This document shows, in pieces, positions 14,065 to 62,099 of a stretch of DNA of 64,000 bases. Location: NCBI GenBank assembly GCA_021736785.1, contig JAIPFF010000003.1, positions 62,001 through 126,000 of the forward strand, read 5' to 3'. Origin of the DNA: Thiohalocapsa sp. Its GTDB lineage: Bacteria > Pseudomonadota > Gammaproteobacteria > Chromatiales > Chromatiaceae. A program made the translations under genes and the position numbers. The first letter of the stretch is position 1. The number at the start of each line of letters is the position of its first letter. The notes below the pieces were generated by a model that worked only from the letters and a program-made list of their open reading frames with translations, was not told where the DNA came from and did not search any database.

Positions 14065-16089
14065 TCAAACCAGGTCGCGCTCGATGCGCTCGGTCCAGGT
14101 GTCGGCGAACACGCGGCGCTCGGATTCGTAGGCGTCGATCTCGGCGTGCAGCAGGAAGTGTGTCGCGGTGGACGTGAGGACTGTCTTGGTCACGGTGCGC
14201 ACATCCCAATCGCCACGCCGCAGACCGCGCTCCCATCGGGTTTCGCCGCGTACGGAGCCGAAATCGATGCCGCGGTAGCGATACCATTCCAGCGCCTTTC
14301 GTTGCAGTTCCAGCTTAAGATCCGGCAGATACACCGTGCCGTCGTCGTTGATGACCTCCAGCGTCGACTCGTCGGCGGCCAAATCGCGGATCACGCGCCA
14401 ATTGTGGTGAGGTGTCGTCAGCTGGCGCTTGACCCCGGGCTCGGCACCTTCCGGCGGCAGGAACACGATGTCGTCATCCGCCGGCGAAGGGTCGCGTCGG
14501 GGGAGGATCAGCCGGCTCGAGCCGGTCTCGATGTCGAGGCAGACCGGCTCCGGGGGCGGCCATGCCAGCGGCCAGTAAGACGTCGAGATGGACAGGCGCA
14601 GCCGGTGACCGGCCGGAAACGCCTGGGCGACGTCGTTGAGCTTCACCCGCACCCGATAGCGCCGTCCCGGCTCCAGCGGCCGGGGCCGCGCACTGCCGTC
14701 GCGATGCGCCAGGTTCAGCAGGCCGTAGGTAATCCGCGTGGCCTGATCGTCCGGGCGTACGTCGGACAGCCGCACCGCGACCATCGCCACCGGTCGGTTC
14801 GCACTCAGCGCCAGCTCGACGATCGGCGCGCCCAGGATCTCGAGGGGCGCGCGCAGCGGCGTGCCGGTGAACACCAGGGCACCGCCGTCCTCTTCGCGCT
14901 GGTCATGGGGCAGGTCGGGCGTTGCCGCATAGGAGCACCACTTGCCGGCGAACAGGCCGACGCTCAGCGGCGACTGCACCGACATCACCTGCCCCGCACG
15001 CTCCGAGCCGCCGTCGTCGAGCACGCCCGGCCACTGCAACGTATAGCTGCTCGCGCGGACATTCGCGGATGGCCAGCCGGGCTCGCCGACCCAACGGCCG
15101 GGTCGGGCGTCGTAGCGCGTGGTCGGCGGCACGCTCTTTTGCATCCACGCGCGCAGCATGGGCTCGCGCAGAATGCCGGTCTCGATGCCCTTCAGCCAGT
15201 GATCCCACCAGCGCAGGCATTCCTGCAGGAAGCCGATCGCAGGCCCGGGCACCCCCTGATGCGGGTACTTGTGGCTCCAGGGGCCGATCAGTCCGAGCCG
15301 CGGACCCGGCAGGTTCGCAAGTAGTCGGAACACGGCATTGGAGTAGCCGTCGGCCCAGCCGCTCACGGCCAATACCGGGCACTGCACGGCCGACCAATCC
15401 TCGCAGATCGAGCCATGGCGCCAATAGGCATCGCGGCGCTGGTGGCGCAGCCAGGTATCGAGCCATAGCCCGCTGCCGCGCAGGCGCCGGAGCCATGTAT
15501 CGCGCCAGCCCTCGCCGACGACATCGGGATCCGGCGGCAGCGAGTTGTAGGCAAACATGGTCGACGCCCAGGACAGATTGTCGCCGAGCAGGCAGCCGCC
15601 CATGAAATGCACGTCGTCGGCATAGCGGTCGTCGGTAGAGCAAACGGAGACCACGGCCTTCAGCGCCGACGGGCGCATGGCCGCGATCTGCAGGCCATTG
15701 AAGCCGCCCCAGGAGATGCCGATCATGCCGACGTTGCCGTCGCACCAGGGCCGGCGCGCGATCCAGTCGATGACAGCGGCACCGTCGTCGAGCTCGCTCT
15801 GCAGGTACTCGTCTTCCAGTACCCCGTCGGAGTCGCCGCTGCCGCGCAGATCGACACGCACGCAGGCATACCCGTGAGCGGCGAAGTAGCCGTGCATGAC
15901 ATCGTCGCGCAGCCGCGTCGAGTCGCGACGCCGGTAGGGAATGTATTCGAGGATCGCAGGCACCGGGCTTGAGCGCGCCGTCTCCGGCAGCCAAACCCGC
16001 GCCGCCAGCCGCAATCCGCGCCCCACCGGAATCCACACCGTCTCGATCACTTCGACCCGGGCTCGAACACTATCGGTGCTATGCATCAT
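14065..16089 (-). CDS. CocE/NonD-family alpha/beta hydrolase (X-Pro dipeptidyl-peptidase-like)
   Basis: 674 residues, starting at the first of two ATGs (16089). Residues ~15-330 form an alpha/beta hydrolase with nucleophile Ser126 in 'GMIGISWGGFNG', acid Asp247 in 'VSGWADGYSNAV', and base His273 in 'GPWSHKYPHQG'. 'ILEYIPYRRRD' and 'VDLRGSGDSDG' are also family elements. Residues ~345-560 form the jelly-roll domain typical of CocE ('GTPLRAPLEILGAPIVELALSA', 'GHRLRLSISTSYWPLAWPPP'). There is a further ~100-residue C-terminal region. No signal peptide, so it is cytoplasmic. Family members cleave cocaine esters, beta-lactam side chains or Xaa-Pro peptides. It follows an ATP-grasp ligase by 71 bases, which hints at an amide or peptide substrate. 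Confidence 0.88.
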   Translation of the reverse strand: MMHSTDSVRARVEVIETVWIPVGRGLRLAARVWLPETARSSPVPAILEYIPYRRRDSTRLRDDVMHGYFAAHGYACVRVDLRGSGDSDGVLEDEYLQSELDDGAAVIDWIARRPWCDGNVGMIGISWGGFNGLQIAAMRPSALKAVVSVCSTDDRYADDVHFMGGCLLGDNLSWASTMFAYNSLPPDPDVVGEGWRDTWLRRLRGSGLWLDTWLRHQRRDAYWRHGSICEDWSAVQCPVLAVSGWADGYSNAVFRLLANLPGPRLGLIGPWSHKYPHQGVPGPAIGFLQECLRWWDHWLKGIETGILREPMLRAWMQKSVPPTTRYDARPGRWVGEPGWPSANVRASSYTLQWPGVLDDGGSERAGQVMSVQSPLSVGLFAGKWCSYAATPDLPHDQREEDGGALVFTGTPLRAPLEILGAPIVELALSANRPVAMVAVRLSDVRPDDQATRITYGLLNLAHRDGSARPRPLEPGRRYRVRVKLNDVAQAFPAGHRLRLSISTSYWPLAWPPPEPVCLDIETGSSRLILPRRDPSPADDDIVFLPPEGAEPGVKRQLTTPHHNWRVIRDLAADESTLEVINDDGTVYLPDLKLELQRKALEWYRYRGIDFGSVRGETRWERGLRRGDWDVRTVTKTVLTSTATHFLLHAEIDAYESERRVFADTWTERIERDLV

Positions 16090-16160
16090 TCGGCTCCTCG
16101 CCGCCCGCGGGCGCGGCGGACCGGCGATCGGGCCGCCGGCGGACTCATTCGACGGATGGA

Positions 16161-17450
16161 TCAGGCGGCGGTTTTCTCGAAGCGCAGCGGCAGCCTCGCC
16201 AGGCAGGCGCGATACTTGGCCTGTAGCTCCGCGCGATCGGCGGCACCGATGAAAATCGTCGCGACTTCGTAGCTGTAGCTGTCCTGATTGCGCAGCTGCG
16301 ACAAGCGCATGCCGGCTTGGACATCGATCAGGACCTGCGTACCCGGCACGGCGGCCTCGACGGCAGCGATCTCGTCGTCGTCGGGAACCCGCGTGACCCG
16401 CGCGTCGGCATAGCGGCGCAGCATGAACTTCGCGGCCAGCGCGTACTCGCCTTGACCGGTCGTGAACCGCGGCCGGCGCCCGAGTCCCAAATCGACCATT
16501 ACCCGATGATGGAACTGACCGTCGACCAGTCGAAACAAGGGCGCGTGGGACTTGGAGATGCGCGGATTGATCTCCAGCAGCCAGATGCGATCGCTTCCCT
16601 CGTCCCAGAAGTACTCGATATTGAACGGGCCCGTGTCGTAGCCGATGTGGCGCATCAGCCGGGCGCTGATCGCGGCCATGCGCTCGAGCACCGGCTCGGG
16701 CAGCTTCGACGGATATTGATAGCGGCTGAACGATGACCCGGCCGGGCCGCTGCGCAACGAGTCGACGACCCCGTAGACCGTTGTCTCGCCGTCGAAGACA
16801 TAGCCCTCCTGGGTACATTGCCGGCCGGCGGAGATGATGTCCTCGGCGATACAGCGATGCCCGTCGATGCCTGCGATGGAGGCCGGCAAGTCGGCCCGGG
16901 CCAGGATCAGGTTGAACGGCTCCGCGTAGCGGCCGATGTCCTGTCGGATCTTGGCGATGGCCGACATCAGCTCCTCTTCGCCGCGGACCCGAAATCCCAA
17001 CTCCGATAGCACGGCCTTGACCGGCTTCAGCCAGAACGGATAGTCCAGCGTCAGCTGTTTCGCCGGGTCGTCGCGGAAGGGATCGATGCAGCAGAACTCC
17101 GGGACATGCTCCGGCACGGCGTCCTTCTGACACAGTCGGCTCCAATACTTGTGCTCGCAGCGCAGCACCGCCTCGAGCGAGGGCCCCGGCAGCCCGAGCT
17201 CCCGTCTCAGAATCGGCAGCACGGTGCTGACCGGAAAGTCCCAATAGCCGACCACGGCATGCACCGGCTCCGGCGATTGCCGCAGCCTGCGCACCCCCTC
17301 GTCCAGCAGCGCCGCCACCGGGAAGCCGTCGCCCTGCTTCAGCTCGGCGCGGCTGAATAGGGGGTGAAAGACCAAGCGGTCGGCATCCGGCAGCGTCTTC
17401 AGCTGCTTGAGATGAAAGTCGTCGAGCCCGACGACGAAGATGTGCATCAT
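16161..17450 (-). CDS. ATP-grasp carboxylate-amine ligase-like protein
   Basis: 429 residues from the ATG at 17450. An N-terminal pre-ATP-grasp domain ('MMHIFVVGLDDFHLKQL', 'AVVGYWDFPVSTVLPILRRELGLPGPSLEAVLRCEHKYWSR') leads into the ATP-grasp fold: 'YPFWLKPVKAVLSELGFRV' has the nucleotide-binding Lys, and 'DTGPFNIEYFWDEGSDRIWLLEINPRI' carries the magnesium-binding Glu and Asn. The closing domain has 'LAAKFMLRRYADARV' and resembles biotin-carboxylase C-termini. These enzymes join a carboxylate to an amine through an acyl-phosphate. The substrates are unknown. It lies between a 77-residue protein and a CocE-type hydrolase on one strand. Confidence 0.85.
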   Translation of the reverse strand: MMHIFVVGLDDFHLKQLKTLPDADRLVFHPLFSRAELKQGDGFPVAALLDEGVRRLRQSPEPVHAVVGYWDFPVSTVLPILRRELGLPGPSLEAVLRCEHKYWSRLCQKDAVPEHVPEFCCIDPFRDDPAKQLTLDYPFWLKPVKAVLSELGFRVRGEEELMSAIAKIRQDIGRYAEPFNLILARADLPASIAGIDGHRCIAEDIISAGRQCTQEGYVFDGETTVYGVVDSLRSGPAGSSFSRYQYPSKLPEPVLERMAAISARLMRHIGYDTGPFNIEYFWDEGSDRIWLLEINPRISKSHAPLFRLVDGQFHHRVMVDLGLGRRPRFTTGQGEYALAAKFMLRRYADARVTRVPDDDEIAAVEAAVPGTQVLIDVQAGMRLSQLRNQDSYSYEVATIFIGAADRAELQAKYRACLARLPLRFEKTAA

Positions 17451-17613
17451 GGTCTGCTCCGCGCGCACCGGTGAGTGACGCTGCGCCCGGCCGATGCCGA
17501 ACCGCAGTTTGGCGGCCCCCACCTCCACCCGGTGTCGCGCTGGCGCCATGGACGCAACGCCGAGCAACGGGCCGGAGCCCTTTCCCGCGTTCCATCCGAG
17601 GCTTCGATCCCGT

Positions 17614-17847
17614 TCAGAAATCCTCTTCCACGCGGATATCGTCGAAGCCGATCTCGCGCGCGGCGCCGGTCGCGGCATCGAGCGAGTGATAAATGCGGTC
17701 CGCTCCGCCCGGCGCGGTATGCGTCAGGTGCTCGCCTTCACGGGTGACGAGGATCAGCCGCCACCCGTTGGCGTCTTCGGCGGTTTTGATGATGGCCTCG
17801 GTCAGGTCGCCGTGATGGCGCGCCTGGAGTGCGTGATCGTGGTCCAT
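17614..17847 (-). CDS. Small acidic protein of unknown function (77 aa)
   Basis: The ATG at 17847 is preceded by a strong GGGAGG ribosome-binding site seven bases upstream. I do not recognise the family. The sequence is His-rich at the start ('MDHDHALQARHHGDL'), then a helix, then a probable beta-hairpin ('GWRLILVTREGEHLTHTAPGG'), a helix around 'YHSLDAATGAAREIGF' and an acidic end ('DIRVEEDF'). No signal peptide, membrane segment or Cys. It lies 103 bases after egtD and 163 bases before the ATP-grasp gene, all on one strand. It could be a substrate, carrier or regulator for the ligase, or unrelated. Confidence 0.7.
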   Translation of the reverse strand: MDHDHALQARHHGDLTEAIIKTAEDANGWRLILVTREGEHLTHTAPGGADRIYHSLDAATGAAREIGFDDIRVEEDF

Positions 17848-17950: not shown

Positions 17951-18946
17951 CTAGCCGGCGAAGACCAGGCAGTGGACGCTGAACAGCGAGCGCGGGTCGG
18001 TCCAAACCCGCTCCGGCTCGTACCCGGCGCGACCCGCGAGCGCTTGGAAGCGCTCGATGCTGTATTTGTACGAGCACTCGGTATGGATGGACTCGCCCTC
18101 GGCGAAGGCAAAGCGCTCGCCGGCCACTTCGACCGTTTGCGCCCGCGTGCTCATCAGATGCATCTCGATGCGGCTGTCGGTCTCGTTGAAGAAGGCCTCG
18201 TGGCGGAAACCGTCGAGATCGAAAGTACCGCCCAGCTCGCGGTTGACGCGCTCGAGCAGATTGAGGTTGAACGCGGCGGTCACGCCGGCCGCGTCGTTGT
18301 AGGCGGCCTCCAGCGTGCGCCGCTCTTTGACCAAGTCGACGCCGATCAACAGGCGCGCGCCCGGCCCCAGGATTCCGGCGACCCGTTTCAGGAAACGCTC
18401 CGCCTCCGCCGGCTCGAAGTTGCCGATGGACGACCCCGGGAAAAAGGCCGCCCGCGGATGATCGTGGTCGTCCACGGGCAGCTCGAACGGCACCGAATAG
18501 TCGGCGCAGACGGCGTGCACGTCGAGGTCGGGAAAGGCCGCCGCCAACGACTCGGCGGACTCGAGCAGGTGCTCGCGGGAAATGTCCACCGGCATATAGA
18601 CCGCGGGGCGCAGCGCCGAGAGCAGCACGCGGATCTTCTTGCTGCTGCCGCTGCCGAGCTCGAGCAGCAGCGCATCGCGCCCGAGCAGCGCCGCCATTTC
18701 GGCGCCGTCGCGCTCGAGGATGCCGATCTCGGTGCGGGTCGGATAGTACTCCGGCAGCTCGCAGATGCGGTCGAACAGCTTCGAGCCGCGGGCGTCGTAG
18801 AACAGCTTCGGCGACAGACGCTTCTGCTTCAGCGCCAGCCCCGAGAGCACCTCTGCCCGCAGATCCGCCGGCGCCGGGTGGAAATCGTGGAAATGGACCC
18901 GCGCATCGCCCGTGTCCCTATCGATCGCCGCCTTGTTTGCACGCAT
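17951..18946 (-). CDS. egtD: L-histidine N(alpha)-methyltransferase EgtD
   Basis: 331 residues; the ATG at 18946 shares one base with the egtB stop (TGATG). The EgtD/Methyltransf_33 pattern is clear: 'ALKQKRLSPKLFYDARGSKLFDRICELPEYYPTRTE', SAM-binding 'LLELGSGSSKKIRVLL', 'YMPVDISREHL', 'FFPGSSIGNFEP', 'LIGVDLVKE' and 'CSYKYSIERF'. EgtD trimethylates histidine to hercynine using SAM, the first step of ergothioneine synthesis. Coupling with egtB makes the assignment firm. Confidence 0.95.
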   Translation of the reverse strand: MRANKAAIDRDTGDARVHFHDFHPAPADLRAEVLSGLALKQKRLSPKLFYDARGSKLFDRICELPEYYPTRTEIGILERDGAEMAALLGRDALLLELGSGSSKKIRVLLSALRPAVYMPVDISREHLLESAESLAAAFPDLDVHAVCADYSVPFELPVDDHDHPRAAFFPGSSIGNFEPAEAERFLKRVAGILGPGARLLIGVDLVKERRTLEAAYNDAAGVTAAFNLNLLERVNRELGGTFDLDGFRHEAFFNETDSRIEMHLMSTRAQTVEVAGERFAFAEGESIHTECSYKYSIERFQALAGRAGYEPERVWTDPRSLFSVHCLVFAG

Positions 18947-20232
18947 CAGAGCTCCTCCGCCAGCCGGATTCCCTTGAACTGCCAGCGCTCGTGGGGATAG
19001 AAGAAATTCCGATAGCCGGGACGCACATGGTCGTCCGGTGTCGCGCACGAGCCGCCGCGCAGCACCATCTGCCCGCACATGAACTTGCCGTTGTACTCGC
19101 CGAGCGCACCTTCCGCCGCCCGGTAGCCGGGATAGGGCAAATAGGCCGAGGCGGTCCATTCCCAGCAATCGCCGAAGAGCTGCTGCAGGCTGCCCGACGC
19201 AGCCGGCGCCGGATGCAGCCGGCCGGACTCGATAAAGTTGCCTGCCACCGGCAGCTGCGCGGCCGCGTGCTCCCACTGCGCCTCGGTCGGCAAGCGCCGG
19301 CCGGCCCAGCGGGCGTAGGCATCCGCCTCATAGTAGCTGACGTGACAGACCGGCTCGGCCGGATTCAGCGCCCGCAATCCGCCCAGCGTGACTTGGTGCC
19401 AGCCGCCGTCCATGCGCCGCCAGTACAGCGGCGCCTGCCAGCCCTCGCTTCGGATGCGTGCCCAGCCGTCCGATAGCCAAAGCGCGGGATCGCGGTAGCC
19501 GCCGTCCTCGACGAAGGCGAGATACTCCACATTCGTCACCAGTCGGTCGGCGAGACGAAACGGCTCCAACAGCACCCGATGGCGAGGCCGTTCGTTGTCG
19601 TAGGCGAAATCCTCCGGCCCGGCACCGATACCGACGATGCCGCCTTCGTGCTCGGTGAAGGTCAGCGGCACCGGCTCGACGGCCGCGGCCTCGGGCAGGT
19701 CGGCCCGATACGGCGGGTACAGCGGGTTGTAGGCCAGGTTGTACTTGATATCGGTGACCAGCAGTTCCTGATGCTGCTGCTCGTGGTTGAGACCGACCCC
19801 GAGCCGCTCGGCCACGGAGGGCCACGCGGCGGCCGCGCAGTCGGCGATCAAGGCCTCCATGCCCGCGTCCACATGTCGGCGGTAGTCGTAGACCTCCTGC
19901 ACCGTGGGCCGCGACAGCAGCCCCCGCTCCGGGCGCGGCCAATAGCCGGCGCCGGTTTGCTCGTAATAGGAGTTGAAGAGGTAGTCGAAGCGGGGGTGAA
20001 AGGTCTTGTAGCCAGGCAAAAACGGCAGCAACAGAAACGTCTCGAAGAACCAGGACACATGCGCCAGATGCCATTTCGGGGGACTGGTCTCGATGGCGGT
20101 CTGCAGCACGTAGTCCTCGGTTTCCAGCGGCTCGCATAGCTGCTCGCTGCGGGCGCGCACGCGCCGGTAGGCTTCGAGGAGCGACTGGCGCTGCCGGTCG
20201 TCGTTGGCTTCCTGAACGGCCTGTGACTGCAT
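18946..20232 (-). CDS. egtB: Ergothioneine biosynthesis sulfoxide synthase EgtB
   Basis: 428 residues. The N-terminal DinB-like part carries the three-His iron site: His55/His58 in 'PPKWHLAHVSWFFETFLL' and His150/His154 in 'GLNHEQQHQELL'. The C-terminal half is an FGE-sulfatase (C-type lectin-like) domain with 'WARIRSEGWQAPLYW', 'VCHVSYYEADAYARWAGRRLPTEAQWE', 'WEWTASAYLPYPGY' and 'LRGGSCATP'. EgtB is an iron(II) oxygenase that joins hercynine to a thiol (gamma-glutamylcysteine or cysteine) as a sulfoxide. egtA, egtC and egtE are absent here, as in many proteobacteria that appear to use cysteine or general enzymes. Confidence 0.95.
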   Translation of the reverse strand: MQSQAVQEANDDRQRQSLLEAYRRVRARSEQLCEPLETEDYVLQTAIETSPPKWHLAHVSWFFETFLLLPFLPGYKTFHPRFDYLFNSYYEQTGAGYWPRPERGLLSRPTVQEVYDYRRHVDAGMEALIADCAAAAWPSVAERLGVGLNHEQQHQELLVTDIKYNLAYNPLYPPYRADLPEAAAVEPVPLTFTEHEGGIVGIGAGPEDFAYDNERPRHRVLLEPFRLADRLVTNVEYLAFVEDGGYRDPALWLSDGWARIRSEGWQAPLYWRRMDGGWHQVTLGGLRALNPAEPVCHVSYYEADAYARWAGRRLPTEAQWEHAAAQLPVAGNFIESGRLHPAPAASGSLQQLFGDCWEWTASAYLPYPGYRAAEGALGEYNGKFMCGQMVLRGGSCATPDDHVRPGYRNFFYPHERWQFKGIRLAEEL

Positions 20233-20683: not shown

Positions 20684-21472
20684 TCAACCTGAAGTGCAGG
20701 GTTGGCCGGCCGCGCCGAGACCAGCTTTTCGACCCCAAAACACATAGTAGGGCACGCGCACCAGCGGCAGATAAGGTACCGGCGCACGACGCTCCCATAG
20801 CCCATGCTCCGGCAGTCGAGCGCGCAGCAGCGCAAGATGATCGGGGCTCGGACGGACGCCGTCGCGCGAGAACCACCATGGCCAGAACGCACGTGTCGCA
20901 CGCGGGTGGGTGACGAGCCCGGGCGGCGGGTCGGCATCGGAGACGTAGAAGTCGACGACGCCGAGCATCCCGCCCGGCTTCAACATCGCCAGCGCGTTGT
21001 CGATGGCGGCACGCCAGTCGGGAATCATCGTCAGCGCATAGGAGAAATAGACGGCATCGGCGGGCATGCGCGGCCGATAGCTGCAGGCGTCCGCTTCCAC
21101 CACGCGCACATTCTCCATGCCCGCGGTTCGCATCCTCGCGCGCTCGAGCAGCGGGCGGCACAAATCGACGACTTCGACGGACCCGAGCCGCGCGAGCCGG
21201 TCGCCGAAAAACAGCAGATTGCGCCCCGTGCCGCCGCCGAGCTCGATGACGCTCCCGCCTTCGGGTACGGCGAGGCGCTCGATCAACTCGGCACGACCGT
21301 GCAACAAGCGCTCGCGGAAGTCGTCGTAGCGACCCGCTTGGGGTCCGTAGAAGGCGGCCAGTCGCTCGGCGTGGGTGCCCTCCGCGGGCTGTCCGCGAAG
21401 CAGGGCCAGCAGCACGCCGGCATCCCCGGCAAGGGTCTTCAGTGCCACGCTACGCGGCCACGTCCGCGACAT
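20684..21472 (-). CDS. btaB: BtaB-like SAM-dependent methyltransferase (betaine-lipid synthesis)
   Basis: 262 residues from the ATG at 21472, overlapping the end of btaA by 23 bases; a GTG at 21448, just past the btaA stop, is an alternative. Class I methyltransferase motifs: 'GGSVIELGGGTGRNLLFFGDRL', 'VEVVDLCRPLLERAR', 'DAVYFSYALTMIPDWRAAI' and 'LKPGGMLGVVDFYVSD'. BtaB trimethylates diacylglyceryl-homoserine to diacylglyceryl-N,N,N-trimethylhomoserine (DGTS). The assignment to BtaB rests on the adjacent btaA plus the 'Y..R...FW.WWF..D' region ('ATRAFWPWWFSRDGV'). Confidence 0.88.
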   Translation of the reverse strand: MSRTWPRSVALKTLAGDAGVLLALLRGQPAEGTHAERLAAFYGPQAGRYDDFRERLLHGRAELIERLAVPEGGSVIELGGGTGRNLLFFGDRLARLGSVEVVDLCRPLLERARMRTAGMENVRVVEADACSYRPRMPADAVYFSYALTMIPDWRAAIDNALAMLKPGGMLGVVDFYVSDADPPPGLVTHPRATRAFWPWWFSRDGVRPSPDHLALLRARLPEHGLWERRAPVPYLPLVRVPYYVFWGRKAGLGAAGQPCTSG

Positions 21473-22652
21473 GGAAGCCGCTATACGTATGTACCCGGTC
21501 CAGCGGCTGCAGACGCGCGGTCAGCTCCGGCTGAAAGCGCACCAGGTCGCGGAGCCGGGCGCGCTCGGGGCCGATCTCCAGCGTATCGAGGTATGCGGGC
21601 GACGCATGGGCACTGCGGAAAATAATCCGGGCGTCGGCGCGTGCGCGCCGCAGGATCAAATCCCATTCCTCGCGCAGGGCCGCGGGATGGTAGGAGCTCA
21701 TCCAGTCCATGTGATCGAGCAAGACGTATTTCGAGATCTGCGCGTCGTGACTGAGCAAGAACTCCGAAACCGTCTCGGTATGCAGGCTGATGCAATCGGC
21801 ACCGCCCTGTTTCAGGCGCTCGAAATTGTCCGCCTTCAGGTATTCGGGGCAGCAGTGCTCGGCATAATGGCCCTGGACATAGAGCATCCAGAAGTAATTG
21901 GTCCAGAGCGGCAGTTGCCGAAAAACATACTCCACGGACTCGCGAATGAAGCCCGCGACGCCGTAGGTGTGCTGGCGCTGTACCTCCTTGCGCTGGGGAT
22001 GGGGTACACCGAGCATACTCATCGTCACCTGGCGGGACAGCGTCCAGTTGACCGCTTTGGTCCAGATCAGCGGCTCGACGCGGGTATCGTAGACATGGCG
22101 CTGATCCTCCAGCGAGCGCGCCGCGAACAGGTCGGCGATGCCGGCGGCCAACCGCGGGCGAAACCGCAGATAGCCGTGGAAAGTGCGCGCGACGGTGCCC
22201 GACAGGCCGTGAAAATAGAAACCCTGACGCGGATTCTCGAACCAGCGAATACGTTTGTCCCAGAACTCCCGCGCGAATGCCGACAAGTCCGCGCGCAGCG
22301 ATGTCCTGTAAAGGCGCTCGAAGCCCGGGTGGTGCCCGAGGCCGAAAAGCGCGAAGAAGTCGTCGAATTCGAGTCGGCGGATTCCGGCGAGCTTGAGCTC
22401 GAGCAAGGCATTCTGGCGCGGGTTGGCATCCACCGCGTGAATACGAGACGGGCCGAGCAATGCATAGTCGAGCACGTTGCAGCCGGCGCTGGTGATGACC
22501 AGCATGCGGTCGCTCGGGCCGATGTCGAGCACCAGGCGGTCGACCGCGGGGTCCTCCCAGCAGGTGTTGTAGACCAAGGACCGCGAGCAGACCGCGTCGA
22601 AGACCTTCTGATCGAACCGATCCGAAAACGTTTGTTTGAGAGTTTGCGCCAT
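21450..22652 (-). CDS. btaA: BtaA: SAM:diacylglycerol 3-amino-3-carboxypropyltransferase
   Basis: 400 residues from the ATG at 22652, about the family's usual length. DUF3419/BtaA signatures are strong: 'RSLVYNTCWEDPAVDR' near the start, 'MLVITSAGCNVLDYALLGPSRIHAVDANPRQNALLELKLA', 'FFALFGLGHHPGFERLYR', 'SVEYVFRQLPLWTNYFW' and 'CPEYLKADNFERLKQG...ISLHT'. It transfers the aminocarboxypropyl group of SAM to diacylglycerol, giving diacylglyceryl-homoserine at the membrane. With BtaB it makes DGTS, a lipid that replaces phospholipids under phosphate limitation in alphaproteobacteria. No Pho box is obvious upstream. Confidence 0.93.
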   Translation of the reverse strand: MAQTLKQTFSDRFDQKVFDAVCSRSLVYNTCWEDPAVDRLVLDIGPSDRMLVITSAGCNVLDYALLGPSRIHAVDANPRQNALLELKLAGIRRLEFDDFFALFGLGHHPGFERLYRTSLRADLSAFAREFWDKRIRWFENPRQGFYFHGLSGTVARTFHGYLRFRPRLAAGIADLFAARSLEDQRHVYDTRVEPLIWTKAVNWTLSRQVTMSMLGVPHPQRKEVQRQHTYGVAGFIRESVEYVFRQLPLWTNYFWMLYVQGHYAEHCCPEYLKADNFERLKQGGADCISLHTETVSEFLLSHDAQISKYVLLDHMDWMSSYHPAALREEWDLILRRARADARIIFRSAHASPAYLDTLEIGPERARLRDLVRFQPELTARLQPLDRVHTYSGFHVADVAA

Positions 22653-22780
22653 CCGGGGACGATCTTCTGTGGGCGAATAAATCGCCGCAGCATAGCGGTC
22701 GCTCGTGACCTGCGGATGGCGGTCAGAAGACGGTCTCGTTGCGGAGCGGGCCGGATGACGAGGCAGAGGACCCGCGGACT

Positions 22781-61973: not shown

Positions 61974-62099
61974 CGGGTTGCCCCGGCGTCGCGGGCTGCG
62001 CTGCCGGTGTCCGGCGCGCGACGGCCCAGTCGCGACACTGCCCGGGCATCGCCGCAGCCCGGTTTCCCGGTTTGCGCCGATGGCTCGCCGCGACTGCGA

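Follow-up and report, generated by a model that had tools for sequence, protein, structure and literature searches.

An ATP-grasp ligase and a CocE-type hydrolase kept together in many bacteria: a candidate synthase/hydrolase pair for a small amino-acid amide

An ATP-grasp ligase and a CocE/S15-type serine hydrolase are encoded next to each other in the stretch of Thiohalocapsa sp. DNA analysed here (64,000 nucleotides, positions 62,001 to 126,000 of contig JAIPFF010000003.1, GenBank assembly GCA_021736785.1; hereafter the window). Both genes encode the expected folds with intact catalytic residues, their adjacency is conserved among relatives, and they co-occur at the level of whole genomes; we are therefore highly confident that the two enzymes are functionally coupled. 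The best explanation, which we hold tentatively, is that the pair makes and recycles a small amino-acid amide, which would probably act as a compatible solute or a linked reserve.

RESULTS

The ligase and the hydrolase are neighbours in most relatives

The window genome (5.2 Mb, 96 contigs) carries the two core genes at the following positions.

16161..17450, minus strand: ATP-grasp ligase, 429 amino acids (aa), over the PF13535 cut-off and with an L-amino-acid-ligase-like fold; core of the pair
14065..16086, minus strand: CocE/NonD-type (S15) alpha/beta hydrolase, 673 aa, over the TIGR00976 cut-off and with the triad S125/D246/H272; core of the pair
14065..14481, minus strand: C-terminal beta-rich domain of the hydrolase, residues ~536-673, delimited by the secondary structure of the model

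Read along the minus strand, the gene order is egtB, egtD, an open reading frame (ORF) of 77 aa, the ligase and the hydrolase, with gaps of 103 bp between egtD and the small ORF, 163 bp between the small ORF and the ligase and 74 bp between the ligase and the hydrolase. No terminator-like sites were seen between these minus-strand genes, the two minus-strand matches both lying inside the ligase ORF. An earlier note on this DNA had put the last three ORFs at 14065-17847, all on the minus strand, and the ORF positions agree.

When 84,980 species genomes were searched with the ligase alignment, 558 relatives emerged, and the 80 best loci were analysed; these are related to each other, and three of them (L046, L114 and L116) repeat genus genomes. 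The hydrolase was present in 67 of the 80 loci and lay within 500 bp of the ligase in 66, a count that is not circular because the loci were chosen by ligase similarity only. In the adjacent pairs the ligase preceded the hydrolase 62 times, the order was reversed three times, and the two genes stood on opposite strands once. Such adjacency is far beyond chance. As for the 13 loci that had no hydrolase, all 11 of the genomes searched carry one elsewhere (the genomes of L080 and L115 fell outside the search).

Co-occurrence was also evaluated in 370 genomes of the class, 21 of which matched the ligase profile at E <= 1e-40. Scoring covered the few best candidates of each genome, and further copies may have escaped it. 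All 19 genomes with a ligase above 470 bits carry a hydrolase above 1000 bits, and 19 of the 20 genomes with a hydrolase above 1000 bits carry the ligase, G215 being the sole exception (Fisher p 6e-31 for co-occurrence of the close forms, with kinship not corrected for). Apart from G215, hydrolases in the ligase-free genomes all scored below 840 bits. The divergent ligases of G174 and G272 (310 and 286 bits, respectively) adjoin a different partner, and the hydrolase is absent there. In G140 and G244 the ligase and the hydrolase are found on separate contigs or some 134 kb from each other, and since they co-occur even so, the coupling is more than inherited linkage. Within the genus, six of 10 genomes have both enzymes (the window genome, G003, G005, G007, G008 and G009) and four have neither (G001, G002, G004 and G006; completeness 83-87% for the last three). 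No viral copies were found.

The ligase has the fold of L-amino acid ligases

The ligase scored 32.1 bits against PF13535 (cut-off 27), which places it in the ATP-grasp superfamily. In an alignment of 55 sequences, composed of the main matches of 46 chosen loci out of the 80 together with the window and genus rows, K142, E203, E279, E293, N295 and R297 were invariant; of these, K142, E279, E293, N295 and R297 correspond to the Lys, the Mg-binding Glu/Asn and the Arg of an ATP-grasp domain. The predicted structure (predicted local distance difference test (pLDDT) 95.1, predicted template modelling score 0.92) was closest in the PDB to BL00235 (3vot; Z 31.3, root-mean-square deviation (rmsd) 3.4, 385 residues aligned), and the folds of YwfE and BacD gave Z 28.6-29.1. 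Chains of PurK/PurT type followed at about Z 27-28. Judged from this model, L-amino acid (dipeptide) ligases would be the nearest fold to the ligase and not an exclusive match.

Two or more ligases are present in 11 of the 80 loci. At L111:4657-7440 a single 927-aa open frame holds two ligase domains, and the hydrolase adjoining it has Ala for the catalytic Ser. A 1140-aa protein adjoins the divergent ligase in G174 (L146:4940-8362) and G272 (L147:9124-12546), and in L146 Pfam identified it as a fusion of a molybdopterin oxidoreductase with a class-V aminotransferase. In Halomonas nitroreducens (L068:11363-12673) a gene of the amino-acid kinase family, aspartokinase-like, directly follows a ligase that has no adjoining hydrolase. 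Broken or truncated copies of the ligase or the hydrolase were seen at L041:8841-10131 (G009), L044:1686-4179 (G008) and L144:12874-15448 (G253), which suggests that extra copies have been lost or that the assemblies contain errors.

The hydrolase has an intact S15-type triad and an additional beta domain

The hydrolase contains the domains PF02129 and PF08530 and belongs to the CocE/NonD family by TIGR00976 (232.8 bits, cut-off 66.3). It fell short of the Xaa-Pro dipeptidyl-peptidase family, the PRK05371 models giving 100.7, 35.2 and 26.4 bits against cut-offs of 642, 711 and 881. With the ATG at 16086 taken as the start, the catalytic triad is S125, D246 and H272; the full Ser/Asp/His triad claimed previously is thus real, and its numbers (126/247/273) were each one higher, as if counting had begun at the in-frame ATG immediately preceding that start. 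Among 44 aligned sequences D246 and H272 were conserved in all and S125 in 43, the exception being the Ala of L111.

Cocaine esterase was the best fold for the predicted structure (pLDDT 86.5; Z 28.2, rmsd 2.4, 483 residues aligned), and a profile alignment set the triad motifs of the hydrolase onto those of cocaine esterase. Ser117 of that enzyme is named in the title of a PDB entry among the fold matches; the rest of its triad numbering is presumed. The top fold alignments end near residue 533-544, and the residues after ~540 form long strands beyond them. Pfam gave no match to this C-terminal beta domain, and sequence comparison with the PDB none that was convincing. In three loci from Salinisphaera and an Alcanivorax metagenome-assembled genome (MAG), an M20-type peptidase, assigned by Pfam in the first and by clustering in the other two, directly adjoins the hydrolase (L100:13477-14781, L109:11333-12616 and L119:9123-10424).

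An ectoine-synthase-like domain is fused to the ligase in one branch

By tblastn, six loci carry a ligase with an ectoine-synthase-family domain (PF06339) fused at its N-terminus, and all four of the fused proteins scanned matched PF06339 with E values of 1e-38 to 1e-47; the window ligase is without this domain. The loci are L097 (Ectothiorhodospiraceae), L099, L100 and L109 (Salinisphaera), L101 (a Nitrococcus MAG) and L119 (the Alcanivorax MAG), of which one is given as an example.

L109:9593-11263: EctC-like/ligase fusion

In a ligase tree built from matches covering >330 query residues (L035, L039 and L131 were omitted as duplicates or extra copies), five fused rows formed one fully supported branch, and L119 paired with the unfused Alcanivorax L088 with support of 99. 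PMC6344544 gives Glu57, Tyr84 and His92 as the iron ligands of EctC. Their equivalents were found in 6/6, 5/6 and 0/6 of the fused domains, respectively, the alignment offset at the second motif being read by eye, and in the domains the residues matching Trp21, Ser23, Arg25 and Glu57 of the P. lautus enzyme are retained. The absence of His92 from all six spoke against a full ectoine synthase. Because this ligand is missing throughout despite most substrate-contact positions being kept, binding looks likelier than full catalysis for the fused domain.

Cyanophycin genes and transporter operons adjoin a few relatives

Cyanophycin synthetase (cphA) and cyanophycinase (cphB) adjoin the ligase in four of the 80 loci.

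L099:17250-20734: cphA/cphB beside the ligase
L100:5157-8737: cphA/cphB beside the ligase
L115:1247-4718: cphA/cphB beside the ligase
L123:5500-10560: cphA/cphB beside the ligase

The cyanophycin domains were confirmed for L099 and L115, for the synthetase of L123 and for the cyanophycinase of L100, and in L123 an asparaginase/IaaA-type gene and the hydrolase are in the cyanophycin cluster as well. At the class level, cphA over its cut-off was found in three of the 21 ligase genomes, all of one genus, vs 15 of the 349 others (p 0.07), and the window genome has no cphA over the cut-off. With four loci of 80 and none at the window, the pair is not a regular member of cyanophycin clusters, and cyanophycin as its general role is unsupported at the class level; we retained it as a rival explanation. 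Separately, ABC transporter operons, one of them annotated as oligopeptide/dipeptide, adjoin relatives of the hydrolase in three annotated plasmids, which were the three inspected out of 215 matching plasmid records.

The small ORF and the ergothioneine genes are bystanders

The following genes precede the ligase in the window.

17614..17847, minus strand: 77-aa His/acidic ORF with a strong ribosome-binding site; a neighbour outside the conserved pair
17951..18943, minus strand: egtD, histidine N-alpha-methyltransferase (TIGR03438, 413.5 bits, cut-off 290.9); neighbour only
18946..20232, minus strand: egtB (TIGR03440, 575.7 bits, cut-off 360); neighbour only

The description of the 77-residue protein as His-rich and acidic with a strong ribosome-binding site was accurate: it has 7 His and 16 Asp/Glu residues, and GGGAGG is located 5 nt ahead of the start codon (ATG). 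Its GC content by codon position (0.74/0.43/0.81) is also like that of its coding neighbours. No relatives were found in 55 other genomes, no match in phages, and in plasmids no full-length match but just a partial one of 24 residues; by tblastn in the loci from L034 on, the best E was 0.13 (except for L045, its own copy). As an orphan in all of these searches, it was rejected as a partner of the two enzymes or a substrate for them, which had been the earlier suggestion.

The link to ergothioneine or histidine-derived compounds that had been raised from the location of the pair fared no better, and membership of the pair in the ergothioneine pathway was rejected, since egtB/egtD are near the pair in one of the 80 loci and egtD occurs in nine of the 10 genus genomes irrespective of the pair. 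The 77-aa protein and egtB/egtD are bystanders. Consequently, the three-gene unit put forward in the earlier note has to be narrowed: by the refuting condition that the note itself had set, relatives that do not keep the genes together, the trio falls as a unit, and the two enzymes do stay together (adjacent in 66/80 loci, co-occurring in 19/19 and 19/20 genomes).

Directly upstream of egtB, a DUF3419 protein and a methyltransferase are encoded at 20684-22709 on the minus strand of the window; we presume the former to be BtaA-type, and with the methyltransferase it looks like a betaine-lipid btaA/btaB pair.

DISCUSSION

We propose that the ATP-grasp enzyme would use ATP-Mg to turn the carboxylate of an amino acid, or of a comparable small acid, into an acyl phosphate and couple it to an amine, giving a presumably dipeptide-like amide, and that the CocE/S15-type hydrolase would cleave this amide again through its Ser-Asp-His triad, so that ligase and hydrolase together would set the level of the compound. 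The compound would most likely serve as a compatible solute, or else as an amino-acid reserve connected with one, and its synthesis and recycling would follow changes in salinity. That both enzymes act on the same amide is likely; that this shared amide is an osmolyte comes close to an even chance. The making and cleaving of an amide, such as a peptide or amino-acid conjugate, had already been suggested, and the pairing of a bond-forming with a bond-breaking enzyme stands, the type of substrate being consistent with the dipeptide-ligase fold and the transporter operons on the plasmids. We favour a small amide serving as a compatible solute or linked reserve because of that fold, the dedicated hydrolase, the saline hosts and the tie to ectoine in one branch. 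The hosts named among the loci include Halomonas, Thioalkalivibrio, Salinisphaera, Photobacterium, Halochromatium and Thiohalocapsa among others, which we take to be mostly halophilic, haloalkaliphilic or marine genera. Within the class, ectC occurs in 10 of the 21 ligase genomes vs 44 of the 349 others (p 2e-4), the 10 being spread over seven of the 15 ligase-holding families by hand count. A bolder version, which we think somewhat improbable, is a widespread undescribed osmolyte system of saline bacteria, in which the dedicated pair would make and unmake a dipeptide-like solute, possibly containing ectoine or arginine, and the ectoine-synthase-derived cupin would be a sensor or substrate module in one branch.

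Several observations weigh against a compatible solute made by a dipeptide-type ligase. PurK/PurT and biotin carboxylases, which are of the same fold class, reached Z 25-28 against the ligase model, and because they score so close behind, the lead of the dipeptide ligases is not decisive. The association with ectC is modest and uncorrected for phylogeny, genomes with only the hydrolase are also enriched in ectC (8/14), and the window genome has no ectC match over the cut-off. TIGR03104, the amidotransferase of N-acetylglutaminylglutamine amide (NAGGN) type, gave no signal as a second osmolyte marker (12/21 vs 158/349, hand count); with matches in 170 of the 370 genomes it does not discriminate, and it was discarded as a marker of halophily. 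No conserved transporter, kinase or regulator was seen with the pair in the locus neighbourhoods, and the cyanophycin link in four loci fits a nitrogen-storage role equally well.

For such a role, the substrate of the ligase would be beta-Asp-Arg or a short piece of cyanophycin, and the hydrolase would be the missing isoaspartyl dipeptidase. The cphA and cphB genes beside four ligases and the asparaginase/IaaA-type gene of L123 point that way, as does PMC10206079, in which a gene with weak homology to cocaine esterase, located in a cluster of CphA1 and cyanophycinase, is presented as a possible isoaspartyl dipeptidase. The small number of such loci, the confinement of cphA to one genus among the ligase genomes and its absence over the cut-off from the window genome make this explanation unlikely. 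An ectoine-related conjugate is no more probable. Here the ligase would take ectoine, N-gamma-acetyl-diaminobutyrate or a relative as the acid or the amine, and the fused EctC-like domain would bind or close it, in keeping with the PF06339 fusions and their retained Trp21, Ser23, Arg25 and Glu57 equivalents; however, His92 is missing from every fused domain, 11 of the 21 ligase genomes, that of the window among them, lack ectC over the cut-off, and the fused rows are essentially one branch, so that the fusion may be a speciality of that branch.

The ligase might instead make a secondary metabolite or signal of peptide type, with hydrolysis providing immunity or turnover. This would suit an L-amino-acid-ligase fold that includes BacD/YwfE, an annotated dipeptide ligase, and the loci with two or more ligases are what stepwise assembly would lead one to expect. 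Nevertheless, the pair is conserved broadly over many phyla while neither tailoring genes nor exporters are conserved with it, and we rate this possibility slightly lower still. Lastly, the two enzymes might act on unrelated substrates and merely be adjacent, as the divergent ligases of G174 and G272 without a hydrolase and the hydrolase without a ligase in 14 of the 370 genomes would allow, but the near-perfect co-occurrence of the close forms, even when they are apart, and adjacency in either order and strand make this very improbable.

The two enzyme classes are known; their pairing as a synthase/hydrolase system for a small amide was not found described in the literature searched, in which subscription journals were mostly uncovered, nor was 'cocaine esterase' found together with 'ATP-grasp'; EctC and ATP-grasp occurred together in a single paper there, a cosmetics review. 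According to a 2005 review (PMC1224877), halophilic purple sulfur bacteria contain neutral osmolytes of amino-acid and dipeptide type, whose enzymes it calls unexplored; the pair is a concrete candidate for such solutes. It is likewise a candidate for the hydrolases suspected in cyanophycin clusters. If the pair does make and recycle a compatible solute, a family of compounds has gone unnoticed in many halophiles and marine bacteria, and the two enzymes could be used as tools to make and cleave an unusual amide.

Among known systems, the osmolyte locus of NAGGN, which comprises an ATP-grasp synthetase, an amidotransferase and an M42 peptidase, resembles the pair in the idea of an ATP-grasp peptide synthase and a hydrolase for a neutral dipeptide osmolyte. 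It differs in that the window ligase matches no NAGGN family and no amidotransferase was among the neighbours scanned; the pair was rejected as a NAGGN system because the TIGR03104 genes of the window genome sit on other contigs (C76 and C27) and the ligase has no such NCBIfam match. The cyanophycin cluster of PMC10206079 shares a CocE-like gene beside cphA and cyanophycinase, whereas the remark in that paper names no ATP-grasp partner (the word 'grasp' does not occur in the paper) and most pairs here are without cyanophycin genes. With cocaine esterase and the CocE/NonD enzymes of peptidase family S15, the hydrolase has in common the alpha/beta hydrolase fold, the S15 triad and the PepX_C domain, but it is only 23-24% identical to cocaine esterase in the fold alignment, has ~130 extra C-terminal residues of beta structure and carries four invariant Asp residues and a His (D152, D153, D157, D158 and H160). 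Likewise, the ligase resembles the L-amino acid ligases (BL00235, YwfE/BacD and RizA) in its whole-length ATP-grasp fold (Z 27-31) and its invariant catalytic residues, whereas its identity to them is just 13-17%, its family has strong motifs of its own (YWDFP, CEHKYWSR, RYQYPS and QDSYSYE), and a CocE-type hydrolase is kept alongside it.

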